DNA of 64,000 nucleotides from Streptomyces sp. NBC_00704. Lineage in GTDB: Bacteria > Actinomycetota > Actinomycetes > Streptomycetales > Streptomycetaceae. The DNA is taken from NCBI RefSeq assembly GCF_036226605.1, contig NZ_CP109000.1, positions 4,646,501 through 4,710,500 on the forward strand. The letters run 5' to 3'. Made by a program: the position numbers and the translations under genes. Position 1 is the stretch's first letter, and each line of letters opens with the position of its first letter. Under the pieces are notes generated by a model that saw only the letters and a list, made by a program, of their open reading frames with translations, was not told the DNA's origin and searched no databases. Shown in pieces: positions 3,404 to 39,882 of this stretch.

Positions 3404-3419
3404 ACGGGACGAACGGAAA

Positions 3420-3468
3420 GGGGCCCCCGCACCGACCACCAGGACACGAGGTCTGGTGCGGGGGCCCC
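3420..3468. terminator. Bidirectional terminator hairpin after lysS
   Basis: A 14-bp perfect inverted repeat (GGGGCCCCCGCACC / GGTGCGGGGGCCCC) with a 21-base loop, between the convergent lysS and DUF2637 genes. It is followed by TTT on the plus strand. Confidence 0.85.
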
Positions 3469-3471
3469 TTT

Positions 3472-3508
3472 CACGCGCCTGCTTCACGCGCCTGCTTCAC
3501 GCGCCTGC
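3472..3508. repeat. Three copies of a 13-bp tandem repeat
   Basis: CACGCGCCTGCTT is repeated twice exactly and once nearly exactly, directly after the lysS terminator and before the end of the convergent gene. Probably a replication-slippage product; no function is evident. Confidence 0.8.
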
Positions 3509-3521
3509 GTGCCGAGAGGTG

Positions 3522-4868: not shown

Positions 4869-4944
4869 CCGTACTCCCCTCCCCTTGCGTGTTCTTGCGC
4901 GCAACAGGGTGGCACATGTGTGCGGCTCACGCTGTGCCGGACCG

Positions 4945-5925: not shown

Positions 5926-6043
5926 GACGCTCGTGGTTCCTGCGGTCGGATCGGGTCCGAGGGGCCACGGTACGCGGTGAAGAAGCTGTGCGGTTCCGCT
6001 TCCAGGCCTTCGCGGACCGGGCACGGAAGGGGCCGAAGTGGCC

Positions 6044-6910: not shown

Positions 6911-7114
6911 GGTCGGCTCCTCTCGACGGTCACTTGGGGATCTTCGGGCCGGTGTCCGCGCTGGTTATTCGCTTGCCGGACGGGGGCGGCCCCCGCAGAC
7001 AATGTGTATCGCACGCGACACCGAGGACGCCGGTCCGTCGTCCCTTTTCGACTGCCTTGGCGCCGGTTTTGCGGCTTGAAACTTCTGTAGGGTTTTCGGG
7101 GGAATGAGGACGTT

Positions 7115-8308
7115 ATGTCGTACGTGGAGATGCCGGGTGCGAAGGTACCCATCCGCATGTGGGCCGATCCGGGGTCGGTCGAGGAGGGCGCGCTCCAGCA
7201 GCTGCGCAACGTGGCGACCCTGCCGTGGATCAAGGGTCTCGCGGTCATGCCGGACGTCCACTACGGCAAGGGCGCGACCGTCGGCTCGGTCATCGCGATG
7301 CACGGTGCGGTCTGCCCGGCGGCGGTGGGGGTCGACATCGGGTGCGGGATGTCCGCGGTGAAGACGTCGCTGACCGCGAACGACCTGCCCGGCGACCTGT
7401 CCCGGCTGCGCTCGAAGATCGAGCAGGCGATCCCGGTGGGCCGGGGCATGCACGACACCCCGGTCGAACCGGGCCGCTTCCACAGTCTGGCCACCGGGGG
7501 CTGGGACGACTTCTGGGGGCGGTTCGACGGGATCGCCGAAGCGGTCAAGTTCCGTGCGGAACGCGCCGCAAAGCAAATGGGAACGCTCGGATCAGGAAAT
7601 CACTTCGTCGAAGTGTGCACGGACACGACCGGTTCTGTGTGGTTGATGCTGCATTCCGGTTCTCGCAACATCGGCAAGGAACTCGCCGAGTTCCACATCG
7701 GGGTGGCGCAGAAGCTGCCGCACAACCAGGGTCTGGTCGACCGCGACCTCGCCGTCTTCGTCGCGGACACCCCGCAGATGGCGGCCTACCGCAACGACCT
7801 GTTCTGGGCGCAGGAGTACGCCCGGTACAACCGCACGCTGATGATGGCGCTCCTGAAGGACGTGGTCCGCAAGGAGTTCAGGAAGGCGAAGCCGGCCTTC
7901 GAGCAGGAGATCAGCGCGCACCACAACTACGTGGCCGAGGAGCGCTACGACGGGATGGACCTGCTCGTCACCCGCAAGGGCGCGATCCGGGCGGGCTCCG
8001 GCGAGTACGGCATCATCCCGGGGTCGATGGGGACGGGCTCGTACATCGTGAAGGGCCTCGGCAACGAGAAGTCGTTCAACTCGGCCTCGCACGGCGCGGG
8101 TCGGCGCATGAGCCGCACCGCCGCCAAGCGTCGCTTCTCGACGAAGGACCTGGAGGACCAGACACGGGGTGTCGAGTGCCGTAAGGACTCCGGTGTGGTC
8201 GACGAGATCCCCGGCGCCTACAAGAACATCGACCAGGTGATGGACCAGCAGCGGGATCTCGTGCAGGTCGTGGCGAAGCTGAAGCAGGTCGTCTGCGTGA
8301 AGGGCTGA
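7115..8308 (+). CDS. rtcB: RtcB family RNA-splicing ligase
   Basis: A 397-residue GTP- and manganese-dependent ligase that joins 2',3'-cyclic phosphate (or 3'-phosphate) and 5'-OH RNA ends. The family motifs are all present: VDIGCGMSAV with the metal-binding cysteine near residue 76, GTLGSGNHFVEV, HSGSRNIGK, SAHHNYV, GSMGTGSYIV, and SHGAGRRMSR carrying the histidine that becomes guanylylated (near residue 326). Length matches the shorter bacterial RtcB class. ATG 7115 follows GAGG at a short spacing. No archease or RtcA partner is adjacent. The gene ends at a strong hairpin shared with the convergent phosphatase gene. The likely role is repair of cleaved tRNA or rRNA, an inference from the family. 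Confidence 0.93.
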   Translation: MSYVEMPGAKVPIRMWADPGSVEEGALQQLRNVATLPWIKGLAVMPDVHYGKGATVGSVIAMHGAVCPAAVGVDIGCGMSAVKTSLTANDLPGDLSRLRSKIEQAIPVGRGMHDTPVEPGRFHSLATGGWDDFWGRFDGIAEAVKFRAERAAKQMGTLGSGNHFVEVCTDTTGSVWLMLHSGSRNIGKELAEFHIGVAQKLPHNQGLVDRDLAVFVADTPQMAAYRNDLFWAQEYARYNRTLMMALLKDVVRKEFRKAKPAFEQEISAHHNYVAEERYDGMDLLVTRKGAIRAGSGEYGIIPGSMGTGSYIVKGLGNEKSFNSASHGAGRRMSRTAAKRRFSTKDLEDQTRGVECRKDSGVVDEIPGAYKNIDQVMDQQRDLVQVVAKLKQVVCVKG

Positions 8309-11539: not shown

Positions 11540-12025
11540 ATGCGGGGATCGCGGGGACGGCGGGGTTTCGCGGTGTGGGGCGGCGCGCTGCTGGCGGCGG
11601 GGGCGGTGGTCTCGCCGGCGCGGGCCGCGGGGGAGCCGCCCGAGGCCGATCTGGCCTATCACGGGTCGGCCGTGCTGGCGGGCGGCCGGGTCGACGTGCT
11701 GCTGACTCCGCGCAACCACGGGCCGGGGGACGTCCCCGACTCGACCGTGCGGCTGCGGTGGTCGGCGCCGTTGGCGGCGGGGGCGCAGCGGCTCGCGGCC
11801 GGATGTGCGCGGACGGGGCGGCAGGAGGTGGTGTGCCGGACGGGAGCGCTGGCCGCCGACGGTCCGGGGGAGCGGATCGCGCTGGGGGTGCGGCTGCGGG
11901 GGCGGCCGGCCGAGGTGACGATGGACGTGGACACGGTGTGGGGCGGCGGGGCGGTGGACCGCAACCGGTCCAACGACCGGCGGCAGGTGCTGGTGCTGGA
12001 CACCGGGGACGCCTACGCCTTCTGA
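11540..12025 (+). CDS. Secreted protein of unknown function
   Basis: A 161-residue exported protein. Arginine-rich start (MRGSRGRRGFAVWGG), a hydrophobic core and an AxA-type cleavage site (SPARAAG, residues about 25-31). The mature part looks like a single beta-sandwich domain (LAYHGSAVLAGGRVDVLL, NHGPGDVPDSTVRLRWSAP), similar in feel to DUF11/CARD-B extracellular domains, with two cysteines (GCART, VVCRTG) that could form a disulfide. The upstream sequence holds the site GAGGAGTG close to the ATG. It is followed 67 bases later by the MarR gene. Function not known. Confidence 0.75.
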   Translation: MRGSRGRRGFAVWGGALLAAGAVVSPARAAGEPPEADLAYHGSAVLAGGRVDVLLTPRNHGPGDVPDSTVRLRWSAPLAAGAQRLAAGCARTGRQEVVCRTGALAADGPGERIALGVRLRGRPAEVTMDVDTVWGGGAVDRNRSNDRRQVLVLDTGDAYAF

Positions 12026-12092
12026 CCGTCGTCCCGTGCGTGCGTCGTACGATGCGCGGACGGCGTCGGCAAAGGCGCCATGAAGGGGTGCG

Positions 12093-12566
12093 ATGTCCGG
12101 GAACGCGCGGTCGCGGCTGCTGGACGAGCTGTCCGTGGTCTCCCGCCGGTACATGGCCGCCTACGCCCTGTTCAACCAGGCGCTCGCGGACCGTCTCGGG
12201 CTGCATCCCACGGACCTGCAATGTCTGAACTTGCTGGTTCTGGAGCACGGGCCGGTGACGACGGGCCGGGTCGCCGAGCTGACGGGGCTGACCACCGGGT
12301 CGGCGACCCGTCTGGTGGACCGGCTGGAGAAGGCGGGCTACGTGGTCCGGGAGCGGGACGCGCGGGACCGGCGGCGGGTGCTGGTGGCGACGGTGCCGGA
12401 GCGGACCGCGGAGTTCACGCGGATGTGGGAGCGGCTGGGCGGCGACTGGATGCCGCTCTTCGAGGATCTCGCGGACGCCGAACTCGCCGTGATCGTCCGG
12501 CACATGCGGCGGACGGTGGAGTTCGGCGCGGAGCACATCGTGCGGTTGCGGAAGGGCCGGGTCTAG
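12093..12566 (+). CDS. MarR family transcriptional regulator
   Basis: A 157-residue winged-helix regulator. The DNA-binding part runs about residues 35-100: TDLQCLNLLVLEHGPVTTGR, then the recognition helix GLTTGSATRLVDRLEKAGYV and the wing RERDARDRRRVLVA. The N- and C-terminal helices would dimerise. GAAGGGG lies close upstream of ATG 12093. The stop is only six bases before the next start, so it is very likely cotranscribed with the permease and TIGR03943 genes and may control them. The ligand is unknown; there is no obvious metal-binding cysteine cluster. Confidence 0.88.
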   Translation: MSGNARSRLLDELSVVSRRYMAAYALFNQALADRLGLHPTDLQCLNLLVLEHGPVTTGRVAELTGLTTGSATRLVDRLEKAGYVVRERDARDRRRVLVATVPERTAEFTRMWERLGGDWMPLFEDLADAELAVIVRHMRRTVEFGAEHIVRLRKGRV

Positions 12567-12572
12567 CGGCGG

Positions 12573-13646
12573 ATGCGGGACACGGAGATAACGGAGATAT
12601 CGGAGCCACGCCCGTCCGCGGTGGCGGACGGGGTGACGGTCGCGGGCGCGGTGGCGGGCGAGCGGGTGCGGGGCGCCGGTGGGCCGGGCGGGCTGCCGCG
12701 GCACTGGCCGCTGGTGCTGCTGGGCGCGGCGCTGGTGCCGGGAGCGGTGCTGGTGCTCGTCGGGCGGACGCTGGAGGAGCCCGCGGTCCAGGCGTGGCGG
12801 ACGGTGTGTCTGGCGGTGACGGTGCAGGCGCTGCCGTTCCTGTTGCTGGGCACGGCGCTGTCGGGGGCGATCAACGCGTTCGTGCCGGCGAGCGTCTTCA
12901 GCCGGCTGCTGCCGAGGCGGGCGGCGCTGGCGGTGCCGGTGGCGGGGATGGCCGGGGTGGTGCTGCCGGGGTGCGAGTGCGCGTCGGTGCCGGTGGCGAG
13001 CAGTCTGATCGGGCGCGGGGTGACCCCGGCGGCGGCGTTCGCGTTCCTGCTGTCCGCGCCCGCCGTGAACCCTGTGGTGCTGACGGCGACCGCGGTGGCG
13101 TTTCCGGGCAGTCCTGAGATGGTGCTGGCCCGGCTCGCGGCCTCGCTGGTGACGGCGGCGGCGATGGGCTGGCTGTGGCTGTGGCTGGGCCGGGAGGAGT
13201 GGCTGCGCCCGGCGGTGCGGCACTCCGGGCACCGTCCGGGGCACAGCCGCCGGACGGAGTTCCGGCGCGGCTTCCAGCACGACTTCCTGCACGCCGGGGG
13301 CTTCCTGGTGGTGGGGGCGATGGCGGCGGCGACCTTCAACGTGGCGGTGCCGAGGTCGGTGCTGGACACGTTCTCCGGTTCGCCGTGGCTGTCGGTGCTG
13401 TTCCTGGCGGCCCTGGCGATCGTGCTGGCCGTGTGCAGCGAGGCGGACGCGTTCGTGGCGGCGTCGCTCAGCGGGTTCTCGCCGGTGGCGCGGCTGGCGT
13501 TCATGGTGGTGGGCCCGATGGTCGACCTGAAGCTGATCGCGTTGCAGGCGGGGACGTTCGGGCGGGCCTTCGCGGTGCGCTTCTCGGCGGCCACGGCGGT
13601 GGTCGCGGTGGTGTGCAGCGCGGTGGTCGGAGGGGTGCTGCTGTGA
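12573..13646 (+). CDS. Permease of the DUF318/YraQ (ArsP-like) family
   Basis: An integral membrane protein of 357 residues with about eight to ten hydrophobic segments. The family hallmarks are a first half with LPFLLLGTALSGAI and the buried motif VLPGCECASVPVASSLI, and the second-half counterpart AVCSEADAFVAAS; in related proteins the cysteines lie in the membrane core. The family includes the ArsP organoarsenical exporters, but most members have no proven substrate. It shares a 4-base overlap (13643-13646) with the TIGR03943 gene, its usual partner. A role in transport of a metal or metalloid species is an inference. Confidence 0.88.
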   Translation: MRDTEITEISEPRPSAVADGVTVAGAVAGERVRGAGGPGGLPRHWPLVLLGAALVPGAVLVLVGRTLEEPAVQAWRTVCLAVTVQALPFLLLGTALSGAINAFVPASVFSRLLPRRAALAVPVAGMAGVVLPGCECASVPVASSLIGRGVTPAAAFAFLLSAPAVNPVVLTATAVAFPGSPEMVLARLAASLVTAAAMGWLWLWLGREEWLRPAVRHSGHRPGHSRRTEFRRGFQHDFLHAGGFLVVGAMAAATFNVAVPRSVLDTFSGSPWLSVLFLAALAIVLAVCSEADAFVAASLSGFSPVARLAFMVVGPMVDLKLIALQAGTFGRAFAVRFSAATAVVAVVCSAVVGGVLL

Positions 13647-14527
13647 GGCGGTTCGCGCAGGTGGGGCTGCTGGCGCTGGCGGGGCTGGGACTGCTGCGCA
13701 CCTCGCTCCTCACGGACGAGTACCTGCGGTTCGTGAAGGAGGGCATGCGGCCGCTGCTGATCGTCTCGGGGGTACTGCTGATCGGCCTGGCGGCGGCGGA
13801 GGCCCGGCCCGGCCGTCGCCACGGCGGCGACGCGCACGCCCACGGCGACGACCACGGCAGCCCCGGCTCGGGGTCCGGCTCGGGCTCCGGCTCGGGGGAC
13901 GATCACGATCCCGGCCCCGCCGGCGCGCACGGCCGTGCCGACGGCCACGCCGACGGCGACGGTGACGGCCGGAAGGCGGGGGACGGCGACGGGGGCCACG
14001 GGCACGGGCACGACCACTCCCGGGTGCCTCGGGTGGCGTGGCTGCTGTTCCTTCCCGTGCTCAGCCTGCTGTTCTACGCGCCGCCCGCCCTCGGCTCGTA
14101 CACCGCGTCGAGGGAGCCCGCCAAGGCCGTCGCCGTGCAGGAGGACGACTTCGATCCGTTGCCGCGGGAGACGCCGCTGCCGATCACGCTCACCGGGTTC
14201 ACCCAGCGCGTGCAGCAGGACCGTTCGCGGGCGATCCGGGGGCGCACGCTGCGGATGACCGGGTTCGTGACGTCCGCCGGCGGGGGCGGCTGGTACCTCA
14301 CCCGGATCGTCATCAGCTGCTGCGCGGCGGACTCGACCACGCTGAAGGTGCGGGTGTACGGGGTGGCGGCGCCGGAGACCGACACCTGGGTGACCGTCGA
14401 CGGGACCTGGCATCCGGGCGGGACGCTGGGGACGCCGTCGGCGGCGGTGGCGGTGGACGCGCGCGCGGTGACGGCGGTGGCCAAGCCGTCCAACGCGTAC
14501 ATGGACGCCGTCCCGCTCACCGGCTGA
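13643..14527 (+). CDS. TIGR03943 family permease partner, histidine-rich loop
   Basis: A 294-residue partner of DUF318 permeases. Two N-terminal transmembrane segments (residues about 5-55) are followed by a long loop (about 55-130) very rich in His, Asp and Gly (DAHAHGDDHG, GHGHGHDHS), a third membrane segment (VAWLLFLPVLSLLFYAP) and an extracellular domain with the conserved ISCCAADS motif. The GTG start overlaps the permease stop. The histidine loop could bind divalent metal ions; it is much longer than needed to link the membrane helices. The family's function is unproven. Confidence 0.85.
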   Translation: MRRFAQVGLLALAGLGLLRTSLLTDEYLRFVKEGMRPLLIVSGVLLIGLAAAEARPGRRHGGDAHAHGDDHGSPGSGSGSGSGSGDDHDPGPAGAHGRADGHADGDGDGRKAGDGDGGHGHGHDHSRVPRVAWLLFLPVLSLLFYAPPALGSYTASREPAKAVAVQEDDFDPLPRETPLPITLTGFTQRVQQDRSRAIRGRTLRMTGFVTSAGGGGWYLTRIVISCCAADSTTLKVRVYGVAAPETDTWVTVDGTWHPGGTLGTPSAAVAVDARAVTAVAKPSNAYMDAVPLTG

Positions 14528-14579
14528 GCGGCGTCCCGGCGCGGGTGCGGAACACCGGAATACGGGTGGCGGGGTGGCT

Positions 14580-14606
14580 GTTGGACCGTATAGTTTAACG
14601 GTCAAC
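14580..14606. promoter_or_regulatory. Inverted repeat upstream of the LLM oxidoreductase
   Basis: GTTGGACCGT at 14580-14589 and ACGGTCAAC at 14598-14606 form an imperfect palindrome (one extra G) around ATAGTTTA, ending 21 bases before the start codon. It overlaps the region where the promoter should lie, so it is a candidate operator. Confidence 0.5.
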
Positions 14607-14627
14607 AACTTTGGAGGGTGAGCGACC

Positions 14628-15797
14628 ATGCAGTTCGGGATCTTCACGGTGGGCGACGTCACGCCGGACCCGACGACGGGCCGTACGCCGACCGAGCGCG
14701 AGCGGATCAAGGCCATGGTCGCCATCGCGCTGAAGGCCGAGGAGGTCGGCCTCGACGTCTTCGCCACCGGCGAGCACCACAACCCGCCGTTCGTGCCCTC
14801 GTCCCCGACGACGATGCTCGGCTACATCGCCGCCCGGACGGAGAAACTGGTCCTCTCCACCTCCACCACCCTGATCACCACCAACGACCCGGTGAAGATC
14901 GCGGAGGACTTCGCGATGCTCCAGCACCTGGCCGACGGACGCGTGGACCTCATGATGGGACGCGGCAACACCGGCCCGGTCTACCCCTGGTTCGGGCAGG
15001 ACATCCGCGAGGGCATCAACCTCGCCATCGAGAACTACGCCCTGCTGCGCAGGCTGTGGCGCGAGGACGTCGTCGACTGGGAGGGCACGTTCCGCACGCC
15101 CCTCCAGGGCTTCACCTCCACACCCCGCCCGCTGGACGACGTGCCGCCGTTCGTCTGGCACGGCTCCATCCGCTCGCCCGAGATCGCCGAGCAGGCCGCC
15201 TTCTACGGCGACGGGTTCTTCCACAACAACATCTTCTGGCCCGCCGACCACACCCGGCGGATGGTCGAGCTGTACCGGGCCCGGTACGCGCACTACGGGC
15301 ACGGCACGCCCGAGCAGGCGATCGTCGGCCTCGGCGGCCAGGTGTTCATGCGGAAGAACTCGCAGGACGCGGTGCGCGAGTTCCGGCCGTACTTCGACAA
15401 CGCGCCGGTCTACGGTCACGGGCCGTCCCTGGAGGACTTCACCGACCAGACCCCGCTGACCGTCGGCACGCCGGAGCAGGTGATCGAGAAGACGCTGAAG
15501 TTCCGCGAGTACGCGGGCGACTACCAGCGCCAGCTCTTCCTGCTCGACCACGCGGGACTGCCGCTGAAGACCGTGCTGGAGCAGCTCGACCTGCTCGGCG
15601 AGGAGGTCGTCCCGGTGCTGCGCAGGGAGTTCGCCGCGGGCCGGCCGGCCGGCGTGCCGGACGCGCCCACCCACCCGTCGCTGCTCGCGCGCAAGGAAGC
15701 CCAGGACAAGACGCGGGACGAGGTGCAGGACGAGGCCCAGGACCAGGACCAGGCCCCGGAGAAGGCTGCTCAGGAGAAGAAGGAGGCCGTGGCATGA
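14628..15797 (+). CDS. LLM class flavin-dependent oxidoreductase (CE1758-type)
   Basis: A 389-residue bacterial-luciferase-like monooxygenase, a TIM barrel using reduced flavin and oxygen. Recognisable stretches are MQFGIFTVGD, the EHH motif in ATGEHHNPP, LLM-type RVDLMMGRGNTGPVYPWFG and the late VGTPEQVIEK. The C-terminus adds a charged, probably disordered tail rich in Gln, Asp and Lys (residues about 350-389). GGAGGG lies 9 bases before ATG 14628. It overlaps the following FMN reductase gene by four bases; such pairs are described as the LLM-duo family, in which the reductase feeds reduced FMN to the oxygenase. Substrate unknown. Confidence 0.88.
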   Translation: MQFGIFTVGDVTPDPTTGRTPTERERIKAMVAIALKAEEVGLDVFATGEHHNPPFVPSSPTTMLGYIAARTEKLVLSTSTTLITTNDPVKIAEDFAMLQHLADGRVDLMMGRGNTGPVYPWFGQDIREGINLAIENYALLRRLWREDVVDWEGTFRTPLQGFTSTPRPLDDVPPFVWHGSIRSPEIAEQAAFYGDGFFHNNIFWPADHTRRMVELYRARYAHYGHGTPEQAIVGLGGQVFMRKNSQDAVREFRPYFDNAPVYGHGPSLEDFTDQTPLTVGTPEQVIEKTLKFREYAGDYQRQLFLLDHAGLPLKTVLEQLDLLGEEVVPVLRREFAAGRPAGVPDAPTHPSLLARKEAQDKTRDEVQDEAQDQDQAPEKAAQEKKEAVA

Positions 15798-32640: not shown

Positions 32641-33036
32641 CAGTCAGGGCGCCGCTTCGCGGACGAGTTCCTCGGCAAGTTCCACACGCTTCTCTCGGCT
32701 GAAGGTCATGCCGTGGCAGCCGTGCAGCTCGCAGGATTGAACGAGGAGACCCGGGACGCGGTCAACGTGTGTCTGCAAAGGCGCAAACAGTTTGCCGTGG
32801 ATGCCGAGAGCCGCACCCTCCTCGGGGATGCAGAAGTCCTGTCGGACACCTATCAGCGCGCACGCAAACTCAGTGCCTTCCGTGCGGCGGAGCTTGCCGA
32901 GGAACTGCACATCTCCTTGCCTGACGCGAACAATCGGCTCAAGCGTCTCCTGGAAGCGGGAGCACTCCGGCGTGAACGTTCCGCGGGCCCTGACCGAGGG
33001 GGCAAGGAATTCAGCTACAGCGTGCCTGCCTTCTGA
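32641..33036 (+). pseudogene. Headless STAS-like (DUF4325-type) / winged-helix gene remnant
   Basis: The frame is open and protein-like from about 32641 (GRRFADEFLGKFHTLLSAEG) to the stop at 33036 but has no start with a site; the only nearby starts are internal (GTG 32713). FADEFLGKF resembles the end of DUF4325 STAS-like domains. It is followed by a winged-helix-like part (FRAAELAEELHISLPDANNR, LLEAGALRRERS, EFSYSVPAF). Upstream of 32641 the similarity to coding sequence ends abruptly, so the 5' part has been lost, probably at the island junction. An N-terminally short version from GTG 32713 (107 residues) could still be made. Confidence 0.5.
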
Positions 33037-33115
33037 GGGGCAGCCGGGCCCTCGCCCCACTCGTGAGGGCTCAGTACGCTGCCGGTCCGCCGAGTTCGCC
33101 CGGGCTTCAGCGCTG

Positions 33116-33180
33116 TTGATCTCCAAGCCGTACATGGACGCGTTCGTGTGGGACCGGCCGCCAGCTGTGGCCCGAGGTGC
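33116..33180 (+). pseudogene. Fragment of a second YdcF-family gene
   Basis: A stretch of about 63 bases matches the intact YdcF gene at 37494-37559: 22 identical bases encoding ISKPYM, then after a 2-base length difference the shared AGCTGTGGCCCGAGG. The frame is broken on both sides, so it is a relic. Confidence 0.7.
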
Positions 33181-33271
33181 CACGAGTGGCTTCTGAGCGC
33201 CGGATTCGACATCCTCCTGTCGTCAGGTTCTGAGGATCGATGCAGTTCAGGCGGAGGCGGGAGAGCGGAGC

Positions 33272-33396
33272 TCATTGCGGACGCGGGTGAGTGTTCGCGG
33301 TGCGGCTGTAGCCCTCTGCGTGATCGGGCCATGGCTCGGTGCTGCTGATGAAGCCGGTCGCCGGGTCCAGCCCCTCGGTCCCGTAGAGCGACTCCG
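33272..33396 (-). pseudogene. Unidentified C-terminal coding remnant
   Basis: On the minus strand a short open stretch reads SLYGTEGLDPATGFISSTEP and WPDHAEGYSRTANTHPRPQ before a TGA at 33272. The composition is protein-like, but no start, no site and no upstream continuation are present. I do not recognise the family. Low certainty. Confidence 0.25.
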
Positions 33397-33399
33397 GCT

Positions 33400-33522
33400 C
33401 TGCGGCTGATCGACGACTCCGACGCGGACCATGAGCAGCACATCGTCCTGCCGACGACGCTGGTCCCGCGGACGACCACCGGGCCGCCGCCCGGGACCTC
33501 TGGGGAGCGGGACACCGAGTAG
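33400..33522 (+). pseudogene. C-terminal remnant of a LacI-type regulator
   Basis: Forty codons ending in TAG read LRLIDDSDADHEQHIVLPTT followed by LVPRTTTGPPP. The pattern 'h-VLPT-LV-R-ST-PP' is the usual end of LacI-family repressors. Everything upstream (DNA-binding and most of the ligand domain) is absent. Confidence 0.5.
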
Positions 33523-33550
33523 GACCGCACCTCGTGGAGCGGGCTCCGAG

Positions 33551-33904
33551 TCAGGGGAGAAGGCCGATCCGGATGGCCATGGCGCCAAGGGCTTCCTTCG
33601 CCGGTGGGTAGATGGCCCGGATACGGGCGAGTTGCTCGTCACGGGTGGCGGTGGGGTTGACGTTCGAGGGCCCCTCACCGTCGAGCAAAGCCTCGAAGTT
33701 GGAGTACTCGGTGACCCGTTTGACCGTGACCTCGCAGGTCTCCTCGGTGCCTTTGATGCGGAAGCGGATGGTGTCACCGGCGGCGAGGTCGGCGAGGTGG
33801 GGGTACTTGACTCGTACCTCGATGGTCTTCTCGCCTGATGCGACGAGGTCGAAGTACTGGCGGTAGAGGTTGAGTTCGTGGACGCGGCCGGTGGTGTTGC
33901 TCAT
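33551..33904 (-). CDS. ASCH domain protein
   Basis: A 117-residue single-domain protein. The ASCH (ASC-1 homology) fold is recognisable from HELNLYRQYFDLVASGEKTI, EVRVKYPHLADLAAGDTIRF and the C-terminal AMAIRIGLLP; the GEKTIEVR motif is the family signature around the putative nucleic-acid-binding groove. ASCH proteins are related to PUA domains and bind RNA; one bacterial member is an amidohydrolase on modified nucleosides. ATG 33904 overlaps the stop of the synthetase-like gene (ATGA), so translation is coupled and the two products probably act together, perhaps on tRNA. It is the last gene of the left-facing operon. Confidence 0.85.
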   Translation of the reverse strand: MSNTTGRVHELNLYRQYFDLVASGEKTIEVRVKYPHLADLAAGDTIRFRIKGTEETCEVTVKRVTEYSNFEALLDGEGPSNVNPTATRDEQLARIRAIYPPAKEALGAMAIRIGLLP

Positions 33905-35022
33905 GGGGCGGAAATGCTCCTGGGTGCTGGTGCGGTGATCAGGCGGCCGATCTCGGCTGCGGAGTACGAGCGGAAGAAGTGACGGGGGTCGGACAGCATC
34001 GTCTGGGTCGTGGCCAGCAGTTGGTCCGCGTACTCGGTGACGGTGCCGGGCCATTCCCGGGTGTCGAGCATCCAGCGGGCCGCTTCCTCAGACAAGGGGG
34101 CATGGCCTTCGCGGATGAGCGACTTGGAGAGTTTCGCGCCGGTGTCGGTGACGACCTGTGGGCAGAACAGCCGGGCGGGTAGCTGTGCACGGGTGAGGCC
34201 GACGGCCTGGAGGGCTTCGTCGACCAGGATGGAGCCGAAGACCCAGTCGCCGCCCTTGACCATGACGTACAGGGTTTCCCGGGTCGCCATGCTCGTGAGC
34301 GTGAGTTCCTTGACCAGGTTGCGGTACAGGGTCGCCAGGTCGAGGTAGGCGCTGGTGGTGGGCGTGATGGTGGCTCGGTACGGGCCGTGGTGGAGACAGA
34401 CCGCGGAGACGGCGGCGGTTTCCTGGTCGGTGAGGTGGACCCTGGTGCGTTCAGCGTGCTTCTCGGACCAGCCACAGCCGTGTTGGGGGCACGGAACTCG
34501 GAGGTGTGGGGTGCCGGTGGAGGGGGCCAGCCACCAGCGGGCTGCGTCGATGCGGGGGAGGAGCCGTAGCCAGGTTCGGCGGAAGTATTCGCCGGCTTGC
34601 TGCTGGGTGTAGGTCTCGACATGGTGGGGGATGCCCAGGCGCCGGGTCAGGGCCGTGAACAGGGGTTGGTATAGCGCGGTGACGAGGTCGGTCAGGGCCT
34701 TCTCGCCGAGTGCTTGGGCGTAGGCGCGCTGGTAACGATGTCCGCTGGCTGGGTCTGTGGCCAGTTCGTACGGGGCGTTGTCGAGGGCGCTGAAGACGAC
34801 CGCGCTGGGGATGCCGAATCGATCGCGAAGGCGGGCGGCCATGGCGAAGGCGAGGGACTGGACGAGCGAGGTGCCGATGTGCGGGGCACCGTTGATCTGG
34901 GTGCCGACAACCAGCACGATCCGCTCGGGCGGGGTGGCCAGGATGCGTGGGGTCAGGACGTCCTCTGTGCGGAGAAGTGCGTTGGCGAGGACGGTGTTCG
35001 GTGAGACGGGGTGGCTAGTCAC
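33901..35022 (-). CDS. Class I aminoacyl-tRNA-synthetase-like protein lacking anticodon domain
   Basis: A 373-residue protein resembling the catalytic half of class I LysRS. VGTQINGAPHIGTSLVQSL (near residue 40) is the HIGH region, VVFSALDNAPYE aligns with the LysRS segment holding DDYDRYRKVP, CPQHGCGWSEKH suggests a zinc site, and VTDTGAKLSKSLIREG (near residue 300) is the KMSKS loop. The helical anticodon-binding domain of the 576-residue LysRS at 1673-3403 is missing. It should form an aminoacyl-adenylate, but the acceptor may be other than a cognate tRNA. The GTG start follows AAGGGGAC. It overlaps the ASCH gene by four bases. The amino acid used is unknown. Confidence 0.75.
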   Translation of the reverse strand: MTSHPVSPNTVLANALLRTEDVLTPRILATPPERIVLVVGTQINGAPHIGTSLVQSLAFAMAARLRDRFGIPSAVVFSALDNAPYELATDPASGHRYQRAYAQALGEKALTDLVTALYQPLFTALTRRLGIPHHVETYTQQQAGEYFRRTWLRLLPRIDAARWWLAPSTGTPHLRVPCPQHGCGWSEKHAERTRVHLTDQETAAVSAVCLHHGPYRATITPTTSAYLDLATLYRNLVKELTLTSMATRETLYVMVKGGDWVFGSILVDEALQAVGLTRAQLPARLFCPQVVTDTGAKLSKSLIREGHAPLSEEAARWMLDTREWPGTVTEYADQLLATTQTMLSDPRHFFRSYSAAEIGRLITAPAPRSISAP

Positions 35023-35090
35023 GGATGTCCCCTTGCGGTCGGGTCGGATGAAAGGCGCCGCTGCCAGGTGTGGGGCGGGGCCGCGGGGCT

Positions 35091-35522
35091 TCAGAGGCAG
35101 GCGTCGGAGCGGCGTTTCGCGTTGTCAGCGGTGACGTACGGGTGCTGGAGCGCCATCCGGAGGGTTTCGGCGTCCGTGAGGGTGTCGTCGTCGGGAAGTT
35201 CGCACCAGCCGCCGTACCAGTCGGCGATCACCTCCCAGCCGGGTGCGACGAGCCAGCTGTTGGTGGAGAGATGCCGTACGGGCAGGCCGTTCCAGCAGTC
35301 GGCGGTGCCAGGCTCGATGGCGTAGTAGAGGCGCTCGTTGGGTCCGTCATAGAGCACCGGGCCGATCGTGGCGCCGGTTGCCCGCAGGAGGACCAAGGCC
35401 AGTAGGCCCGTCTCGGCAGAGGTTCGCACGAGGTCCCAGCCGTCGCCGACCTTCAGCAGGCGCAGGCCGGGCACGTCGCTGACCCTGGGGGCGCTGCGCA
35501 GCGCGTCACGCACGGATGTCAT
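35091..35522 (-). CDS. Small protein of unknown function (possible prim-pol-like fragment)
   Basis: A 143-residue protein. Readable features are DVPGLRLLKVGDGWDLVRTS, a hydrophobic stretch LLALVLLRATGATIGPVLYD, then LYYAIEPGTADCWNGLPVRH and a Trp-rich end (VAPGWEVIADWYGGWCELPD). EPGTADxW followed by a loop resembles short Streptomyces proteins related to the N-part of bifunctional primase/polymerases, but the acidic catalytic triad is not evident, so this is only a tentative similarity. ATG 35522 overlaps the stop of the resolvase-like gene (ATGA). A 68-base gap separates it from the synthetase-like gene, in the same operon. Confidence 0.65.
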   Translation of the reverse strand: MTSVRDALRSAPRVSDVPGLRLLKVGDGWDLVRTSAETGLLALVLLRATGATIGPVLYDGPNERLYYAIEPGTADCWNGLPVRHLSTNSWLVAPGWEVIADWYGGWCELPDDDTLTDAETLRMALQHPYVTADNAKRRSDACL

Positions 35523-35980
35523 GTGTCCGCCCGTCGCTGGAGGTTGGAGCTGGAGCCGCAGGCCGGTGCAGCCCCCGTCATCGGCTTGGAGGTACGGACC
35601 ACGATCAGGCGTGCACCCGCCGCTGTTATCCGTCGCCTTCGCTCGGCACTGAGGTCCTTGGGCCCGAGGTGGTTCAGCGCGGGGATCACGGCACCGTATG
35701 TGTCGGGCAGTTCGAGGGCGTCGACGAGTCCGACGAAGGCCGGCGAGCGGATGGCTGCCGTGGTGTCGCGGTCGACGAAGACGCCGCAGAGGGCGAGTTC
35801 ATGTCGTCGGCAGTACTCGGTGAGGCAGCTGACAAGTGCGCTGTGACGGGCCGGGCTGCTGGTTGCATGGCGCAAGTAGCCGAAGACCTGAGGGAAGGCT
35901 ACGGGGCGGCGTTCCGTGATGAGTTCCATGAGCACAGCGTCGGCTGCCGTGAACGGCCTTGAAATGACCTGCTGTTGCAC
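35519..35980 (-). CDS. Stand-alone resolvase-like (serine recombinase N-terminal) protein
   Basis: A 153-residue protein. QVFGYLRHATSSPARHSALV and LTEYCRRHELALCGVFVDRD, AAIRSPAFVGLVDALELPDT and AVIPALNHLGPKDLSAERRR follow the order of beta strands and helices in the catalytic domain of serine recombinases (GYxRxSS, C.E.G, vf.D...R.p...l...l). The DNA-binding tail is absent and the usual arginine cluster is incomplete, so recombinase activity is doubtful; it may be a regulatory relative. It is the first gene of the left-facing operon; GTG 35980 sits inside an 11-bp direct repeat and has only GGAA directly upstream. Confidence 0.6.
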   Translation of the reverse strand: MQQQVISRPFTAADAVLMELITERRPVAFPQVFGYLRHATSSPARHSALVSCLTEYCRRHELALCGVFVDRDTTAAIRSPAFVGLVDALELPDTYGAVIPALNHLGPKDLSAERRRRITAAGARLIVVRTSKPMTGAAPACGSSSNLQRRADT

Positions 35981-35995
35981 TTCCGTTGCACTTCC
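35974..35995. promoter_or_regulatory. Tandem 11-bp direct repeat between the divergent island operons
   Basis: GTTGCACTTCC occurs twice head to tail, at 35974-35984 and 35985-35995. The repeat straddles the start codon of the left operon and lies 54 bases before the regulator gene. It is a candidate operator for the adjacent XRE protein. Confidence 0.45.
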
Positions 35996-36048
35996 CGCCC
36001 CACGTCGTCACCGAGAGTGCTTCCATACGTGACGGAGGGAGGTAATCC

Positions 36049-37092
36049 GTGGTCAACGTGCAGCAGTGGACAGGCCAGGAGGCGAGAGCCCTTCGCGCCG
36101 CCCTGCGTATGAGCACCCGTGCCTTCGCCGAGCACCTCGGTGTGGCTCTGCGCACAGTGGCCAAGTGGGAGAGCTTCGGTACCGGGACTCAGCCCCGTCC
36201 CGACACACAGGCGATCCTCGACACCGCGCTCGCACGGGCGGACACCGCGGCCCAGGCCCGGTTCGAAGCGCTGTTGTTCCCCGCACGGAAGGCCGTGAGA
36301 CCGGCGGATTACGAGACCTGGACCGACGACATCGAGCGCGCCGTGGTCTGTGTCAGCCGCCAGGACTTTCCATTCGCCTCGACCTTGCTGAATCGGTGGC
36401 TGGTCAGCCAAGGCCCCCACGACCTCGACGACAAGGGCCTATACCTGTACGGGCGTTCGCTCGTCCTGCTCGGCGATGTGCAACGGGACCAAGGCGCGAT
36501 CCTCGGCCCACTGTCCGCTCGCCAGTCCTACCTCACCGCGCGCGGCATGTTCTCCGAGCTCGACATCCCGCGCAGGGTGGCCCAGATCGAGCTGTCCCTC
36601 GCTGTCGTACGGGAGATGTCAGGCCAGCTCGATGCCGCCGCTCATCGATACGAGCAGCTCGCCGCAGACGAACGCCTCAGTCGACGCGACCGGGCCAGGG
36701 CCCGGCTGTGGATCGGCACGGCCCTGAGCAAGGAAGGCAACAACGGCTACGCCACGGAAGTCATGATGGCGGCCACCCGCGAGTTCGAGGAACTCGGCGA
36801 GCCTGAGGACTGGTCCGTGGCGCATCAGAAGCTGGCCCTCGCGCATCGCGGTGTCGGTGACCTGACACAGGCCCTGCACTACATCGACATCGCGCGTACC
36901 ACCGGCACGGTCGACTCCCCGATGCAGCGGGTGCGGCTGGACACCGCCTACGGGCACATCCTTCTGTCGGACGCTGCGACCCGGAATGATGGGCTGTCCG
37001 TCCTCGATCAGGTGGCGCAGGTGGCTCGGCAGTACGGGCTGAGCCACCAACTGCGCAGCATCGAGGGCATCCGAAGGGGCCAGCAGGGATGA
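36049..37092 (+). CDS. XRE-type regulator with TPR-like sensor region
   Basis: A 347-residue regulator. The N-terminal helix-turn-helix (about 8-65) reads EARALRAALRMSTRAFAEHL and GVALRTVAKWESFGTGTQPR. The remaining 270 residues are alpha-helical with TPR-like repeats (AQIELSLAVVREMSGQLDAA, AHQKLALAHRGVGDLTQALH), a layout seen in Streptomyces signal-sensing regulators. GTG 36049 has a strong GGAGGGAGG site. The stop overlaps the YdcF start (ATGA), so regulator and YdcF are made from one message. It is divergent from the synthetase-like operon and probably controls both sides through the intervening repeat. Confidence 0.87.
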   Translation: MVNVQQWTGQEARALRAALRMSTRAFAEHLGVALRTVAKWESFGTGTQPRPDTQAILDTALARADTAAQARFEALLFPARKAVRPADYETWTDDIERAVVCVSRQDFPFASTLLNRWLVSQGPHDLDDKGLYLYGRSLVLLGDVQRDQGAILGPLSARQSYLTARGMFSELDIPRRVAQIELSLAVVREMSGQLDAAAHRYEQLAADERLSRRDRARARLWIGTALSKEGNNGYATEVMMAATREFEELGEPEDWSVAHQKLALAHRGVGDLTQALHYIDIARTTGTVDSPMQRVRLDTAYGHILLSDAATRNDGLSVLDQVAQVARQYGLSHQLRSIEGIRRGQQG

Positions 37093-37778
37093 GCCAGGGA
37101 GTGCCAGTGCCGCAGCACGAGCAGCGCCAGATCACCGACGAGCAGTTCCACGACGCGACGTTGATCTGGAACTACCACCAAATGGGCCACGAGCAGCGGC
37201 CCTGCTCGGCGGCGATCGGCCTCGGCAGCCACGACCTGGGCGTGGCCACCACAGCCGCCGACCTCTACCGTGCCGGCCTCTTCCCGGTCGTGGTCTTCAG
37301 CGGCGGCAACAGCCCCACCACCCGCGCCCGCTTCCCGCGCGGCGAGGCCGTCCACTATCGCGAGCATGCCCTGAGTCTGGGCGTTCCGGACGAAGCGATC
37401 CTGGTCGAGCCGAAGGCGGCCAACACCGGCCAGAACATCACCTTCTCCCGTGAGCTGCTGGCCGAGGCCGGCATCGCTGTCGAGTCGCTGCTGCTGATCT
37501 CCAAGCCGTACATGGAGCGCCGTTCGTACGCGACTTGCCGCAAGCTGTGGCCCGAGGCAGAGGTCGTCTGTGCCTCAGAGCCGCTGGAACTGGACGACTA
37601 CATCAAGTCCATCGGCGACGAGAAGCTCGTCGTCGACATGCTTGTCGGGGACCTGCAACGGGTGATCGAGTACCCGAATCTCGGCTTTGCCGTCGAGCAG
37701 CACGTACCGGGGGACGTATATGACGCGTACGAGCGCCTCCTGGGCGCCGGCTTCGACAGCCGTCTCATCACCACCTGA
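37089..37778 (+). CDS. YdcF/DUF218 family protein
   Basis: A 229-residue soluble member of the DUF218 (ElyC/SanA/YdcF) family. The fold is recognisable from PCSAAIGLGSHDLGVATTAA, YRAGLFPVVVFSGGNSPTTR, LVEPKAANTGQNITFSRELL and LLISKPYMERRSYATCRKLW. It lacks the N-terminal membrane anchor of ElyC, so it is cytoplasmic like E. coli YdcF, which binds S-adenosylmethionine; the catalytic role is unknown. It is translationally coupled to the XRE gene and followed by the WbqC gene. A relic of a second copy lies at 33116-33180. Confidence 0.88.
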   Translation: MSQGVPVPQHEQRQITDEQFHDATLIWNYHQMGHEQRPCSAAIGLGSHDLGVATTAADLYRAGLFPVVVFSGGNSPTTRARFPRGEAVHYREHALSLGVPDEAILVEPKAANTGQNITFSRELLAEAGIAVESLLLISKPYMERRSYATCRKLWPEAEVVCASEPLELDDYIKSIGDEKLVVDMLVGDLQRVIEYPNLGFAVEQHVPGDVYDAYERLLGAGFDSRLITT

Positions 37779-37806
37779 GCTACCCCATGTCAGCTCGTCG
37801 GGCGGG

Positions 37807-38520
37807 GTGTGCGCGATCCACCAGCCGAACCTGTTCCCACGGCTGTCCACGTTGGCGAAGCTCTTCGCCGCCGACCGGTGGATCGTCCTGACCGACGTGC
37901 AATTCGCCCGGCGCGATTTCCAGCACCGCGCCCGATTGGCCGCCTTGGACGATCCTGGTCGGCAGCAGTGGCTCACGCTCCCGACGCACCTTCCACACGG
38001 ACGTCCGACGCTGATCAGCCAGGCGCGGCTTGTTGACCCCTGCCGTTCGCGCCGGAAGGTCGAACTGCTCGTGCGCCAGTATTACGGCGGTAGCCGCCAC
38101 TGGGGTGCCGTGTGTGAAGTCCTGGAGGCGGTCCTGGACACATTCGACACCTCAGAATGCGTGGCAGGCGTCGCGAAAACATCGACGATTGCCCTGCTCA
38201 CGGCTCTCGGCTGGTCGGGGGAAGTGCTGGACAGCAGCGAGATTCCGAGCCGCCAAAACCGGTCCGAGCGCCTTGCCGACCTCGCCGCCGCCACCGGCAG
38301 CACCCACTATCTGTGCGGATCCGGTGGCTCGCGTTACCTCGATGTGGGTCCGTTCGATGCCAACGGCATCCCCGTGCTGCCTTTCCACATCCCTGTGGAT
38401 GCGGATGACCCGCTCTGGCAGTGGAACCGATGTACCAGCAGCCTCTGGGCCCTGAGCAAGATCGGGCCCGGGGCGCTGGCGAACCGACTGGCTGCCCGAC
38501 CAGGAGCCGCGTTCCCTTGA
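37807..38520 (+). CDS. WbqC family protein
   Basis: A 237-residue protein of the WbqC family. The signature starts CAIHQPNLFPRLSTLAKLFA and continues DRWIVLTDVQFARRDFQHRA, SRQNRSERLADLAAATGSTH and YLCGSGGSRYLD. WbqC-like proteins occur in O-antigen and other glycan or amino-sugar clusters and may be acyl or glycyl transferases, but no reaction is established. GTG 37807 begins exactly at the conserved IHQPN block; its GGCGGG abuts the codon, so an upstream ATG at 37720, overlapping YdcF, is possible. It is the third gene of the operon. Confidence 0.82.
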   Translation: MCAIHQPNLFPRLSTLAKLFAADRWIVLTDVQFARRDFQHRARLAALDDPGRQQWLTLPTHLPHGRPTLISQARLVDPCRSRRKVELLVRQYYGGSRHWGAVCEVLEAVLDTFDTSECVAGVAKTSTIALLTALGWSGEVLDSSEIPSRQNRSERLADLAAATGSTHYLCGSGGSRYLDVGPFDANGIPVLPFHIPVDADDPLWQWNRCTSSLWALSKIGPGALANRLAARPGAAFP

Positions 38521-38972
38521 AACCTGGGAGTGACTGAGCCGCTACTGCACGAGGCGGTAGAACGGGGCGCTGTTCCTGGACGTCGAGCAGTTCTCGGACG
38601 CGCTTGGTCGTCCAGGCCAACTCGTGCGCCAACGCACCCACTGACAGGTCTGCTCCGTGGCGCTGTCCACCTGGTGGAACTGGTGTATCGAAGGCCGCTG
38701 TTTCGGTGCGGGTGGGGTGCTTCCGGTCGTGGCGGAGTTACGAGATCGCGCACTCGGTGTTCCCCACTAGCGACGCCGACACCGATGCGACCCTGGCGCG
38801 CGCGAGGCGACTGCCTGCACCTCGACGCCATCGCCGACCTCGCGGTTCTCTGGATGAGGATCACCCGCCAGGAGCCCAAGGCTCTTGACGGGCTCGCGAA
38901 ACTCATCAGGTGCGCCCGGCCCGACCGGCGGCGGGCTATGAGGGCTGACTGGGCCGAGCGACTGACCGGCGG
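38521..38972. other. Decayed sequence between WbqC and the integrase tail
   Basis: No intact gene. Short protein-like fragments occur: on the minus strand near 38538-38646 a piece reading GALAHELAWTTKRVRELLDV (winged-helix-like), and on the plus strand near 38810-38915 DAIADLAVLWMRITRQEPKA. Neither has a start, a site or a continuing frame. Confidence 0.5.
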
Positions 38973-39088
38973 GAATCCGAGTACGCCGGCCACTCGGACC
39001 CGACTTCACGCTGCGGACGTACACGCACCCGCTGTCGTCCAGCGACACGCGGACCCGCAAGACGATCGACGACGCCTTCAGGCAGTAG
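38973..39088 (+). pseudogene. Frameshifted C-terminal remnant of a tyrosine integrase
   Basis: SEYAGHSDPT is followed, after a one-base loss near 39004, by FTLRTYTHPLSSSDTRTRKT and IDDAFRQ then TAG. The order 'GHSDP-FTLRTYTH' carries the catalytic His and Tyr of actinobacterial phage and ICE integrases. Nothing upstream continues it, so this is the relic of the element's integrase. Confidence 0.7.
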
Positions 39089-39179
39089 CCAGCACCAGAA
39101 GCCCAGGGTGTATCAGGGCCTCCGCTGCACCAATGTGCCCTCGATGTGCCCCGGCCGCCTGACGCCCCCTCCCCGCCAC

Positions 39180-39229: not shown

Positions 39230-39661
39230 TCAGGGCCACACCAAGCAATAAGGCTGGTGCCCCGCCTCGTGCAGCCGGTGCGAGAAGTCCTGCCATTCGT
39301 GCAGGAGTTGGTACACGTTGAAGGCGTCGCGGGGGCCGCCGCGGTCGGGGACCGTGGACCAGATGAACGCCGCCGCGCCGACCGCCTCCTCGCCGATGTC
39401 GCGCAGGGGGTCGACGACCGTCATGGGGAGCTTCACGACGGCGTAGTCGGGGTGGAGGACGACCAGCTCCAGCGGGGGCACCTTGTGGAGGGGGACGCCT
39501 TCGATGCCGGTCAGCACCATCGCGGCCATCGTCTCCGGCTTGATCTTGGTGAACATGCCGTTCATGCCCAGCTCGTCGCCGCCGAGTTCCTCGGGGCGCA
39601 TCGAGATCGGGACGCGGGCCGCCGTGGCGCCGTCGGGCGCGCCGAAGTACTTGTACGTCAC
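39230..39661 (-). CDS. Conserved protein of unknown function upstream of hemL
   Basis: A 143-residue soluble protein: KYFGAPDGATAARVPISMRP, EELGGDELGMNGMFTKIKPE, VPPLELVVLHPDYAVVKLPM and FNVYQLLHEWQDFSHRLHEA. I recognise it as a type of conserved streptomycete protein but know no function. The GTG at 39661 overlaps the stop of the 74-codon upstream gene by four bases (GTGA), which fixes the start and argues against a longer reading into 39874. It is transcribed away from hemL and ends in a T-tract terminator. Confidence 0.75.
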   Translation of the reverse strand: MTYKYFGAPDGATAARVPISMRPEELGGDELGMNGMFTKIKPETMAAMVLTGIEGVPLHKVPPLELVVLHPDYAVVKLPMTVVDPLRDIGEEAVGAAAFIWSTVPDRGGPRDAFNVYQLLHEWQDFSHRLHEAGHQPYCLVWP

Positions 39662-39882
39662 CCCCACCCGACCACCGTTCCCGCTCCCCGCCCCAAGGCG
39701 GTCGACCCGCTGGTCGACTCGCCGGTCGACCCGCTCGGGTTCACTCGGTACACCCTGTGCCTGCGTCTGCCGTGCTTCGCTGACTTCCTCCGCGTCGCGC
39801 CGGTGCCTTCCCCGCCGGGCACGTCGAGGACCCAGGTCGTCAGTCCCCTCGCCCAGTCCGCCACCGCGATGCATATCTCCAC
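39658..39882 (-). CDS. 74-residue protein, first gene of the small operon
   Basis: A small basic protein that starts [20 protein letters not shown] (hydrophobic and tryptophan-rich) and continues [20 protein letters not shown] to a Ser/Gly/Thr tail. The GTG at 39882 lies 14 bases past a CTAGAAAAGC stretch on the minus strand that could be a promoter. The stop overlaps the next GTG (GTGA), so the pair is translationally coupled. No family is recognised; the coupling is the main support that it is real. Confidence 0.6.

Follow-up and report, generated by a model that had tools for sequence, protein, structure and literature searches.

We analysed a window of 64,000 nucleotides from the 8.2 Mb genome of Streptomyces sp. 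NBC_00704; the relatives named below are Streptomyces unless another genus is given. At positions 33551-38520, the window carries a set of seven genes that is probably best explained as the remnant of an integrative element with separable modules, in which a regulated unit (module B) provides a cargo slot holding a putative amino-acid ligase pair (module A). The seven intact open reading frames (ORFs) read as two divergent operons. The minus strand encodes a resolvase-like protein (RES, 138 residues, from 35935), a small protein (SMALL, 143 residues), a synthetase-like protein (SYN, 373 residues) and an ASCH protein (117 residues), while the plus strand encodes an XRE regulator (347 residues), a YdcF protein (229 residues) and a WbqC-like protein (237 residues, from a GTG at 37807). 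ASCH and SYN (33901-33904), RES and SMALL (35519-35522) and XRE and YdcF (37089-37092) each overlap by four bases, in agreement with the two intact divergent operons that an earlier note on this DNA had described from the sequence. All seven genes are under purifying selection, with median ratios of nonsynonymous to synonymous substitution rates (dN/dS) against nine relatives of 0.08 for YdcF, 0.12 for XRE, 0.20 for SYN, 0.21 for ASCH, 0.23 for WbqC, 0.34 for RES and 0.37 for SMALL, these being values between species and not within the window's own lineage. To that extent, the claim of the note that selection has kept the genes also holds. We define module B as RES-SMALL together with the divergent XRE-YdcF-WbqC, and module A as SYN-ASCH.

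Each protein was searched in 199 Streptomyces genomes, and neighbours were counted within 10 kb. All 31 RES rows entered the counts, together with 43 of 49 WbqC rows. For SYN we used 25 of 36 rows, after removal of short or weak fragments and of second pieces from a single gene, and for XRE 39 of 42, again without second pieces. ASCH, with 55 rows, was represented by its 34 strongest and SMALL by its 10 strongest, and YdcF, with about 122 rows, by 59, of which 53 were the strongest and six more lay close to other genes in the count. Counts of YdcF, SMALL or ASCH as neighbours are therefore lower bounds. Around the 39 XRE places we found YdcF in 39, WbqC in 33, RES in 29 and SMALL in 10, which bears out the proposed coupling of XRE to YdcF and WbqC, and SYN in 4, a number that omits weak SYN fragments. 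Conversely, ASCH accompanied SYN in 23 of the 25 SYN places (ASCH alone in 17, the whole set in 4, ASCH and a YdcF in 2), none of the genes did so in 2, and an XRE of this kind was near 4. The idea of the earlier note that the island forms one functional unit is not supported by this neighbourhood check: modules A and B mostly occur apart, and the island is not one indivisible system. SYN matches, including fragments, were present in 29 of the 199 genomes, and XRE homologues (E 1e-30 or better) in 38. A phylum-wide search with a SYN profile found matches in 2 of 396 genomes, the window's own being one of them, too few for neighbourhood counts beyond Streptomyces.

The boundary between the modules is also visible at the DNA level. 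Compared with 11 SYN-bearing loci, the window is similar from 33536-33572 to 38468-38508, whereas similarity to six SYN-less loci (L131-L136) begins only at 35098-35158, next to the end of SMALL at 35091; in the more distant SYN-less loci L137 and L138 the match begins further in. With this boundary at the 3' end of SMALL, SYN-ASCH acts like a cassette inserted downstream of that gene. Twelve loci share the seven-gene order, with 51-97% protein identity to the window. In a quick SYN tree with SH-aLRT support only, for which 76 of the 81 SYN loci described below gave a SYN row and 66 a platform label, the 12 rows with all seven genes group in a single clade (SH-aLRT 95), with rows of a methyltransferase-type platform around it, and the platform labels require 9 changes compared with a mean of 33 after shuffling. 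These data fit a history in which module A would have entered module B once and then persisted. Between the window and L031, the synonymous divergence (dS) is 0.13 for SYN and 0.70 for XRE, and such unequal values among genes of one locus pair are a sign of later recombination.

The partnership of SYN and ASCH was followed in 81 loci. These comprise the window itself plus the 80 best among 131 confirmed stretches, which had been located through SYN peptide patterns; several of the loci span less than 19 kb. In 71 of them SYN is directly followed by ASCH on its own strand, with a four-base overlap in 69, and in seven others (L062, L104, L105, L106, L108, L109 and L110) both are fused into one ORF. 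The exceptions are L107, where SYN and ASCH lie side by side, L093, which ends inside SYN, and L101, where a broken SYN precedes ASCH. Six of the fused genes follow a P-loop gene of one cluster or type, identified as AAA_28 in both members that were scanned. SYN and ASCH thus belong together, as the note had supposed. The pair is carried by the phages Picard and Mojorita; on the Picard map it sits between the endolysin side and the integrase, and the genes are labelled as in PHROG families 35625 and 19935. Moreover, SYN occurs in 13 plasmid records, of which 12 cover at least 80% of the protein, and in 12 viral contigs, one of them perhaps Picard itself. A literature search combining the terms 'ASCH domain' and 'aminoacyl-tRNA synthetase' found nothing. 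An ABC-transporter set recurs, as judged by eye, in up to 13 Streptomyces SYN loci at varying distance and is probably a chromosomal neighbour. In L035, a type ISP restriction-modification gene (11683-15147, by Pfam) lies directly downstream of ASCH, with a homologue in L036 (11684-15151). The window's own genome contains a second ASCH gene (G000:C1:887288-887605, 42% identity) and a single SYN, and SYN paralogues with 42-45% identity occur in L021 (1480-2631) and L022 (1483-2670) with no ASCH in the 4-kb locus, where they adjoin methyltransferase-like and dioxygenase-like genes named by eye.

SYN (33901-35022, minus strand) is a 373-residue protein resembling the catalytic core of class I lysyl-tRNA synthetase (LysRS). 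No Pfam, NCBIfam or PADLOC model names it, and it shows no match to the class I LysRS family PF01921; PHROGs place it in family 35625 'tRNA synthetase' (E 3e-180) and ASCH in 19935 'RNA-binding protein' (E 4e-42), both being labels only. Across 38 homologues, H48, G50 and T51 of an HxGT motif and K297, L298, S299, K300 and S301 of a KLSKS motif are invariant or nearly so, and a zinc-type Cys/His cluster (C178, C183, C209 and H212) can be read from the alignment. The key residues are also kept in an alignment of 13 sequences that includes plasmid-borne relatives from Macrococcus and Pantoea with 21-24% identity. The Macrococcus protein is related to SYN over nearly its full length (hhalign 99.6%) and itself reaches 21.9 bits against PF01921 (E 9e-5), with a cut-off of 27. 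An AlphaFold2 (AF2) model of SYN (pLDDT 88.9) has class I LysRS (1irx) as its best solved fold, with a Z-score of 19.3 and a root mean square deviation of 3.5 over 292 residues, followed by BshC (Z 17.2 over 283 residues), CysRS (Z about 14), MshC (Z 13.5) and glutamyl-queuosine tRNA-Asp synthetase (4a91, Z 12.2). All listed structure matches of SYN are class I synthetases and their kin, and no defence or toxin fold stands near the top for either SYN or the SYN-ASCH fusion, an absence that argues against no such role. Searches of the Protein Data Bank (PDB) by sequence, with SYN or its profile, returned chance matches only. Judging from its motifs and predicted fold, SYN would thus be amino-acid-activating, in line with the flavour that the note had given it.

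SYN shares features with several characterised enzymes and differs from each in others. It shares with class I LysRS the catalytic core, the HxG and KxxKS motifs and the zinc-type cluster; unlike these enzymes, it has no PF01921 match and is paired with ASCH, and because it aligns only to residues 3 to 337 of the 507-residue 1irx chain, the C-terminal anticodon-binding domain is absent. BshC and MshC are amino-acid ligases for low-molecular-weight thiols that use a small-molecule acceptor. Both have the class I synthetase-type fold, whereas SYN has an ASCH partner, and its annotated neighbours included no thiol genes. Glutamyl-queuosine tRNA-Asp synthetase, which aminoacylates a base, likewise represents a truncated class I core, but its fold match to SYN is much weaker and we know of no ASCH partner for it. 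We conclude that SYN represents a family of class I synthetase-like proteins that neither Pfam nor NCBIfam names and that, with its ASCH partner, forms an exchangeable cassette. A full class I LysRS gene (PF01921, 391 bits) is located in the window at 1673-3400 on the plus strand, 30 kb from SYN. Among the distant relatives, the one on the Macrococcus plasmid L127 stands in a row (3076-8048, with the same set in L128) after two ATP-grasp genes and before a small gene; genes for an MFS transporter and an Rgg-like XRE regulator adjoin the row, and the whole looks like a small-molecule or signal system. A reading by eye of this small gene as an ASCH gene was given up, being unsupported by Pfam and by hhalign (0.2%). 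On the Pantoea plasmid L126 (7192-10972), the genes around the SYN relative encode a methyltransferase, a DMT exporter and proteins of LOG and Ham1 type.

ASCH (33551-33904, minus strand) is a PUA-like protein of 117 residues that matches PF04266 with 44.4 bits at a cut-off of 21.2. The model of the SYN-ASCH fusion (pLDDT 88.8, pTM 0.87) shows the same SYN core followed by an ASCH domain, which superposes on PH0355 (2z0t) with a Z-score of 18.6 at 29% identity. The ASCH fold is shared with PH0355, YqfB and ZmASCH. In YqfB, an N4-acetylcytidine amidohydrolase, a Thr-Lys-Glu triad with Thr24 as nucleophile is described (PMC6972931). The window protein scores only 13.7 bits against the YqfB model NF003443 (cut-off 93). 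Its residues Lys26, Glu29 and Arg31 are invariant in 10 rows and spaced as Lys21, Thr24 and Arg26 of YqfB, assuming no gap before residue 31. The Lys and the Arg would thus be kept, but by this spacing the invariant Glu29 would take the position of the nucleophile, and YqfB chemistry is therefore not expected. ASCH-type domains of other proteins bind RNA or modified bases according to PMC7641849 and PMC5615036, and the former also places ASCH/PUA domains in predicted toxin-antitoxin and restriction contexts.

The slot occupied by SYN-ASCH receives other cargo in related loci, which further argues against the island being one functional unit. We inspected 20 SYN-less module-B loci picked by hand from the XRE places; cassettes were named by a Pfam scan of one member per cluster, except that the phosphotransferase-like cluster k35, lacking a Pfam match, was named by eye. 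The slot contained a JmjC-AKR-APH cassette in 3 loci, a radical SAM cassette in 5 and an AdoHcyase-like-NUDIX cassette in 6, with the remaining 6 not classed. In two loci, the radical SAM cassette includes a peptide ORF of 55-56 residues; this ORF, at L149:9027-9197 with a match in L132, lies beside the radical SAM gene and could encode a precursor of a modified peptide.

SYN-ASCH, in turn, is found with another regulatory platform. An XRE-methyltransferase pair divergent from SYN-ASCH accounts for 30 of the 66 labelled tree rows and is the commonest type; its XRE has 451 residues and no likeness to the window XRE by BLASTP. The equivalent divergent position is taken, in less closely related members of the second platform, by AdoHcyase-like-NUDIX (L163) or JmjC-AKR-APH (L166 and L167), and L164 and L165 carry a metallo-beta-lactamase-type gene set. 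Moreover, the second platform has HATPase-type and small-protein genes ahead of its cargo, and these are homologous to their counterparts in the more distant module-B loci (E 5e-40 and 3e-27). An XRE-type cluster of any kind is present in 64 of the 81 SYN loci. Further genes recur around the pair: clusters k25 and k26 (210-251 and 354-375 residues) occur together downstream of ASCH in L031, L032 and L054, and in L086, L088 and L089 an HD-domain gene (YfbR-like, L089 being the locus scanned) and another helix-turn-helix (HTH)-type regulator lie upstream of SYN.

What appear to be remains of a mobile element surround the seven genes. Relaxase, MobC-type, integrase or DUF3631 clusters, identified by Pfam on one member per cluster, are present in 26 of the 81 SYN loci. 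In the window, G+C content is 67-68% across 33001-39000 and 69-75% in the flanking 1-kb steps. The right flank retains a tyrosine integrase tail (38999-39142, plus strand) with 50% identity to residues 346-407 of a complete 409-residue integrase in L036 (PF00589), and one attachment-type repeat (39232-39304) inside the 3' end of a gene for a 145-residue protein (39230-39667, minus strand). The window has no second copy of this repeat, but two relatives do, at a distance of about 10 kb: L035 (90% over 73 bases) and L156 (76% over 162 columns). These pairs indicate that the relatives are bracketed by attachment-type repeats and that the left end of the element is missing here. The attachment site is not explained by any tRNA gene of the window. 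Known integrative and mobilizable elements of Streptomyces offer a likeness, as the relatives carry integrase, relaxase and MobC-type genes and repeat pairs, whereas the window copy retains only gene tails and one repeat; most term searches of the literature on cargo of such elements came back empty. As part of the explanation that we consider probable overall, the window would hold what is left of an integrative element, about 10 kb long in relatives, once inserted at the 3' end of the gene for the 145-residue protein.

The edges of the island are decayed, as the note had said, although one fragment proved to be of another kind. On the left, a headless ORF at 32713-33036 (plus strand) encodes a STAS-like (DUF4325-like) and winged-helix remnant that is 95% identical to the C-terminal part of a 178-residue ORF in L156, for which Pfam gives winged-helix matches and a weak DUF4325 match. 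A PADLOC match to SoFic (E 9e-4) had suggested a Fic tail at this position, a reading that we dropped in view of the STAS-like and winged-helix composition of the L156 protein. It is followed by a 66-base relic of a YdcF gene (33112-33177, plus strand), which repeats 37490-37557 within YdcF as direct repeats D2 and D4 (27 bases at 96% and 37 at 84%) and has an 83-87% match to other loci at the DNA level. On the right, the fragment at 38558-38653 (minus strand), previously taken for a LacI tail, is the tail of an XRE/peptidase-M78 gene, with 87% identity to residues 354-385 at the C-terminus of a 389-residue protein in L135 (PF06114, HTH_3).

Within module B, Pfam names YdcF (DUF218; 37089-37778, plus strand; PF02698, 64.9 bits) and the WbqC-like protein (37807-38520, plus strand; PF08889, 94.4 bits), as it does ASCH in module A, whereas SYN, SMALL and RES have no usable match. 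A literature search for 'WbqC' with 'Streptomyces' found nothing. XRE (36049-37092, plus strand) combines a helix-turn-helix match (HTH_31, E 0.0013) with weak tetratricopeptide-like repeats (TPR_2), both below cut-off. SMALL (35091-35522, minus strand) matches no Pfam, NCBIfam, PADLOC or PHROG family; its 10 closest homologues all lie beside XRE, and weaker relatives are frequent away from XRE in the 199 genomes. RES (35519-35935, minus strand, the longest ORF starting at 35980) has no match to PF00239 in the window protein, and one of 15 family members matches at E 0.011. Serine resolvases carry their catalytic serine after a Y-x-R motif. The RES family reads YLRHVT, FLRLVR and the like, and by eye no serine is seen at the expected place. 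An NCBIfam scan of the window proteins gave nothing additional above cut-off, nor was anything usable obtained when the PDB was searched with profiles of RES and XRE.

Between the operons, a conserved tandem repeat, GTTGCACTTCCGTTGCACTTCC, at 35974-35995 is the putative operator of the divergent promoter. The pattern, a tandem repeat of GTTGCACTTCC, is found exactly at the equivalent place in 10 other genomes or loci and as variants in more distant ones, and it is the sole site in the genome at up to two mismatches. The note had spoken of strong sites around the regulator, but a sigma-70 scan detected no promoter-like site; a terminator scan likewise gave nothing.

How the two modules relate functionally, and what SYN-ASCH does, can be read in several ways. 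In one integrated seven-gene system, XRE would act as a signal sensor, with SYN, ASCH, YdcF and WbqC jointly making or reading one modified product. The conserved order in 12 loci, dN/dS below 1 for all genes and a divergent intergenic region common to the regulator and cargo operons agree with it. We nevertheless judge it quite unlikely, since each half occurs without the other in most genomes, module B takes other cargo and SYN-ASCH other regulators, and the union fits a single origin and so counts once. Gene damage in relatives, which the note had named as a refuting sign, does occur, with RES split in L034, WbqC interrupted in L103 and SYN broken in L101; such cases are few. For the pair itself, the closeness of its fold to class I LysRS and a viral fold match to a 375-residue lysine--tRNA ligase (Halogranum tailed virus 1) bring to mind a spare LysRS conferring resistance to a LysRS inhibitor. 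This we hold to be very improbable, given the missing anticodon domain, the 10-13% identity in the structural alignments and the full class I LysRS already encoded in this genome.

Two other proposals concern what SYN-ASCH might be used for. As a defence or counter-defence pair of mobile elements, it could for instance protect or alter tRNA during phage infection, a role suggested by its place beside the integrase of the temperate phage Picard, its spread on plasmids and integrative elements, the restriction-modification genes of L035 and L036 and the contexts reported for ASCH/PUA domains. A radical SAM protein of an alternative cassette also matches PADLOC viperin models (E 2.5e-15), although any radical SAM protein may do so. 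We find this role rather unlikely, as there is no convincing PADLOC match (best E 0.029 for the seven window proteins, none at 0.01 for the fusion or its AAA_28 neighbour), the scanned and annotated part of the recurring neighbour clusters includes no nuclease or toxin, and the slot is exchanged with metabolic-type cassettes. Synthesis of a small peptide or nucleoside product, an antibiotic or signal, by SYN-ASCH or its distant relatives, with SYN as a BshC/MshC-like amino-acid ligase, is a little easier to entertain, though still doubtful. It would agree with the fold matches to BshC and MshC, the ATP-grasp and MFS genes of Macrococcus, the Pantoea neighbourhood and the peptide ORF of the radical SAM cassettes sharing the slot; it is weakened by the low identity of these relatives, by the failed assignment of an ASCH gene in Macrococcus and by the finding that no transporter is tied to SYN-ASCH in Streptomyces.

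Several observations weigh against our own explanation, the separable modules of an element remnant. Some ASCH relatives stand apart from SYN: at 11 of the 34 counted ASCH places no SYN was counted within 10 kb, one of these ASCH proteins (in genome G175) having 73% identity and most less than 60%, in addition to the 2 of 25 SYN places without ASCH. The cargo of 6 of the 20 SYN-less module-B loci fell into no class. Furthermore, the six closest relatives of the second-platform regulator (at least 74%) all lie beside SYN, so the platform is not freely exchanged at short range. Between SYN and the class I LysRS of this genome, hhalign aligns the HxGT regions but gives only weak sequence similarity (probability 22%, E 0.001). 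Finally, the seven-gene union persists through a dS of 0.3-0.9 for most genes, and its persistence in at least 12 strains may reflect real co-operation.

With the modular element remnant as the preferred explanation, module B would act as a regulated unit whose two operons flank a single tandem-repeat operator; its cargo slot, located downstream of RES-SMALL, would be filled by module A in this clade. XRE would switch the operon through the shared divergent promoter, as the conserved repeat suggests. Judging from the intact motifs and fold, SYN would form an aminoacyl-adenylate from an amino acid and ATP, and most likely it would transfer the aminoacyl group to an acceptor held by ASCH, which would resemble a nucleotide or nucleoside and could be either RNA or a soluble molecule. 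A nucleotide-like acceptor is favoured because ASCH-type domains elsewhere bind RNA or modified bases, and a soluble one because distant relatives sit with ATP-grasp and transporter genes or with LOG- and Ham1-type genes.

As a wider and more tentative proposal, to which we give less than even weight, the island may belong to a combinatorial class of two-part systems in Streptomyces, their phages, plasmids and integrative elements. A regulator-effector platform, either XRE-YdcF-WbqC or XRE-methyltransferase, would be coupled across one divergent promoter to an interchangeable cassette, i.e., SYN-ASCH, JmjC-AKR-APH, AdoHcyase-like-NUDIX or radical SAM with GNAT or a phosphotransferase-like protein, and SYN-ASCH would be a new kind of amino-acid ligase made of a stripped class I core and an ASCH acceptor-binding domain. 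The exchange of cassettes between two platforms offers a natural experiment on the roles of YdcF, WbqC and the methyltransferase. That phages and plasmids disseminate a family of enzymes with the catalytic core of a tRNA synthetase, accompanied almost always by ASCH and in some cases fused to it, points to a use of amino acids beyond ordinary translation.

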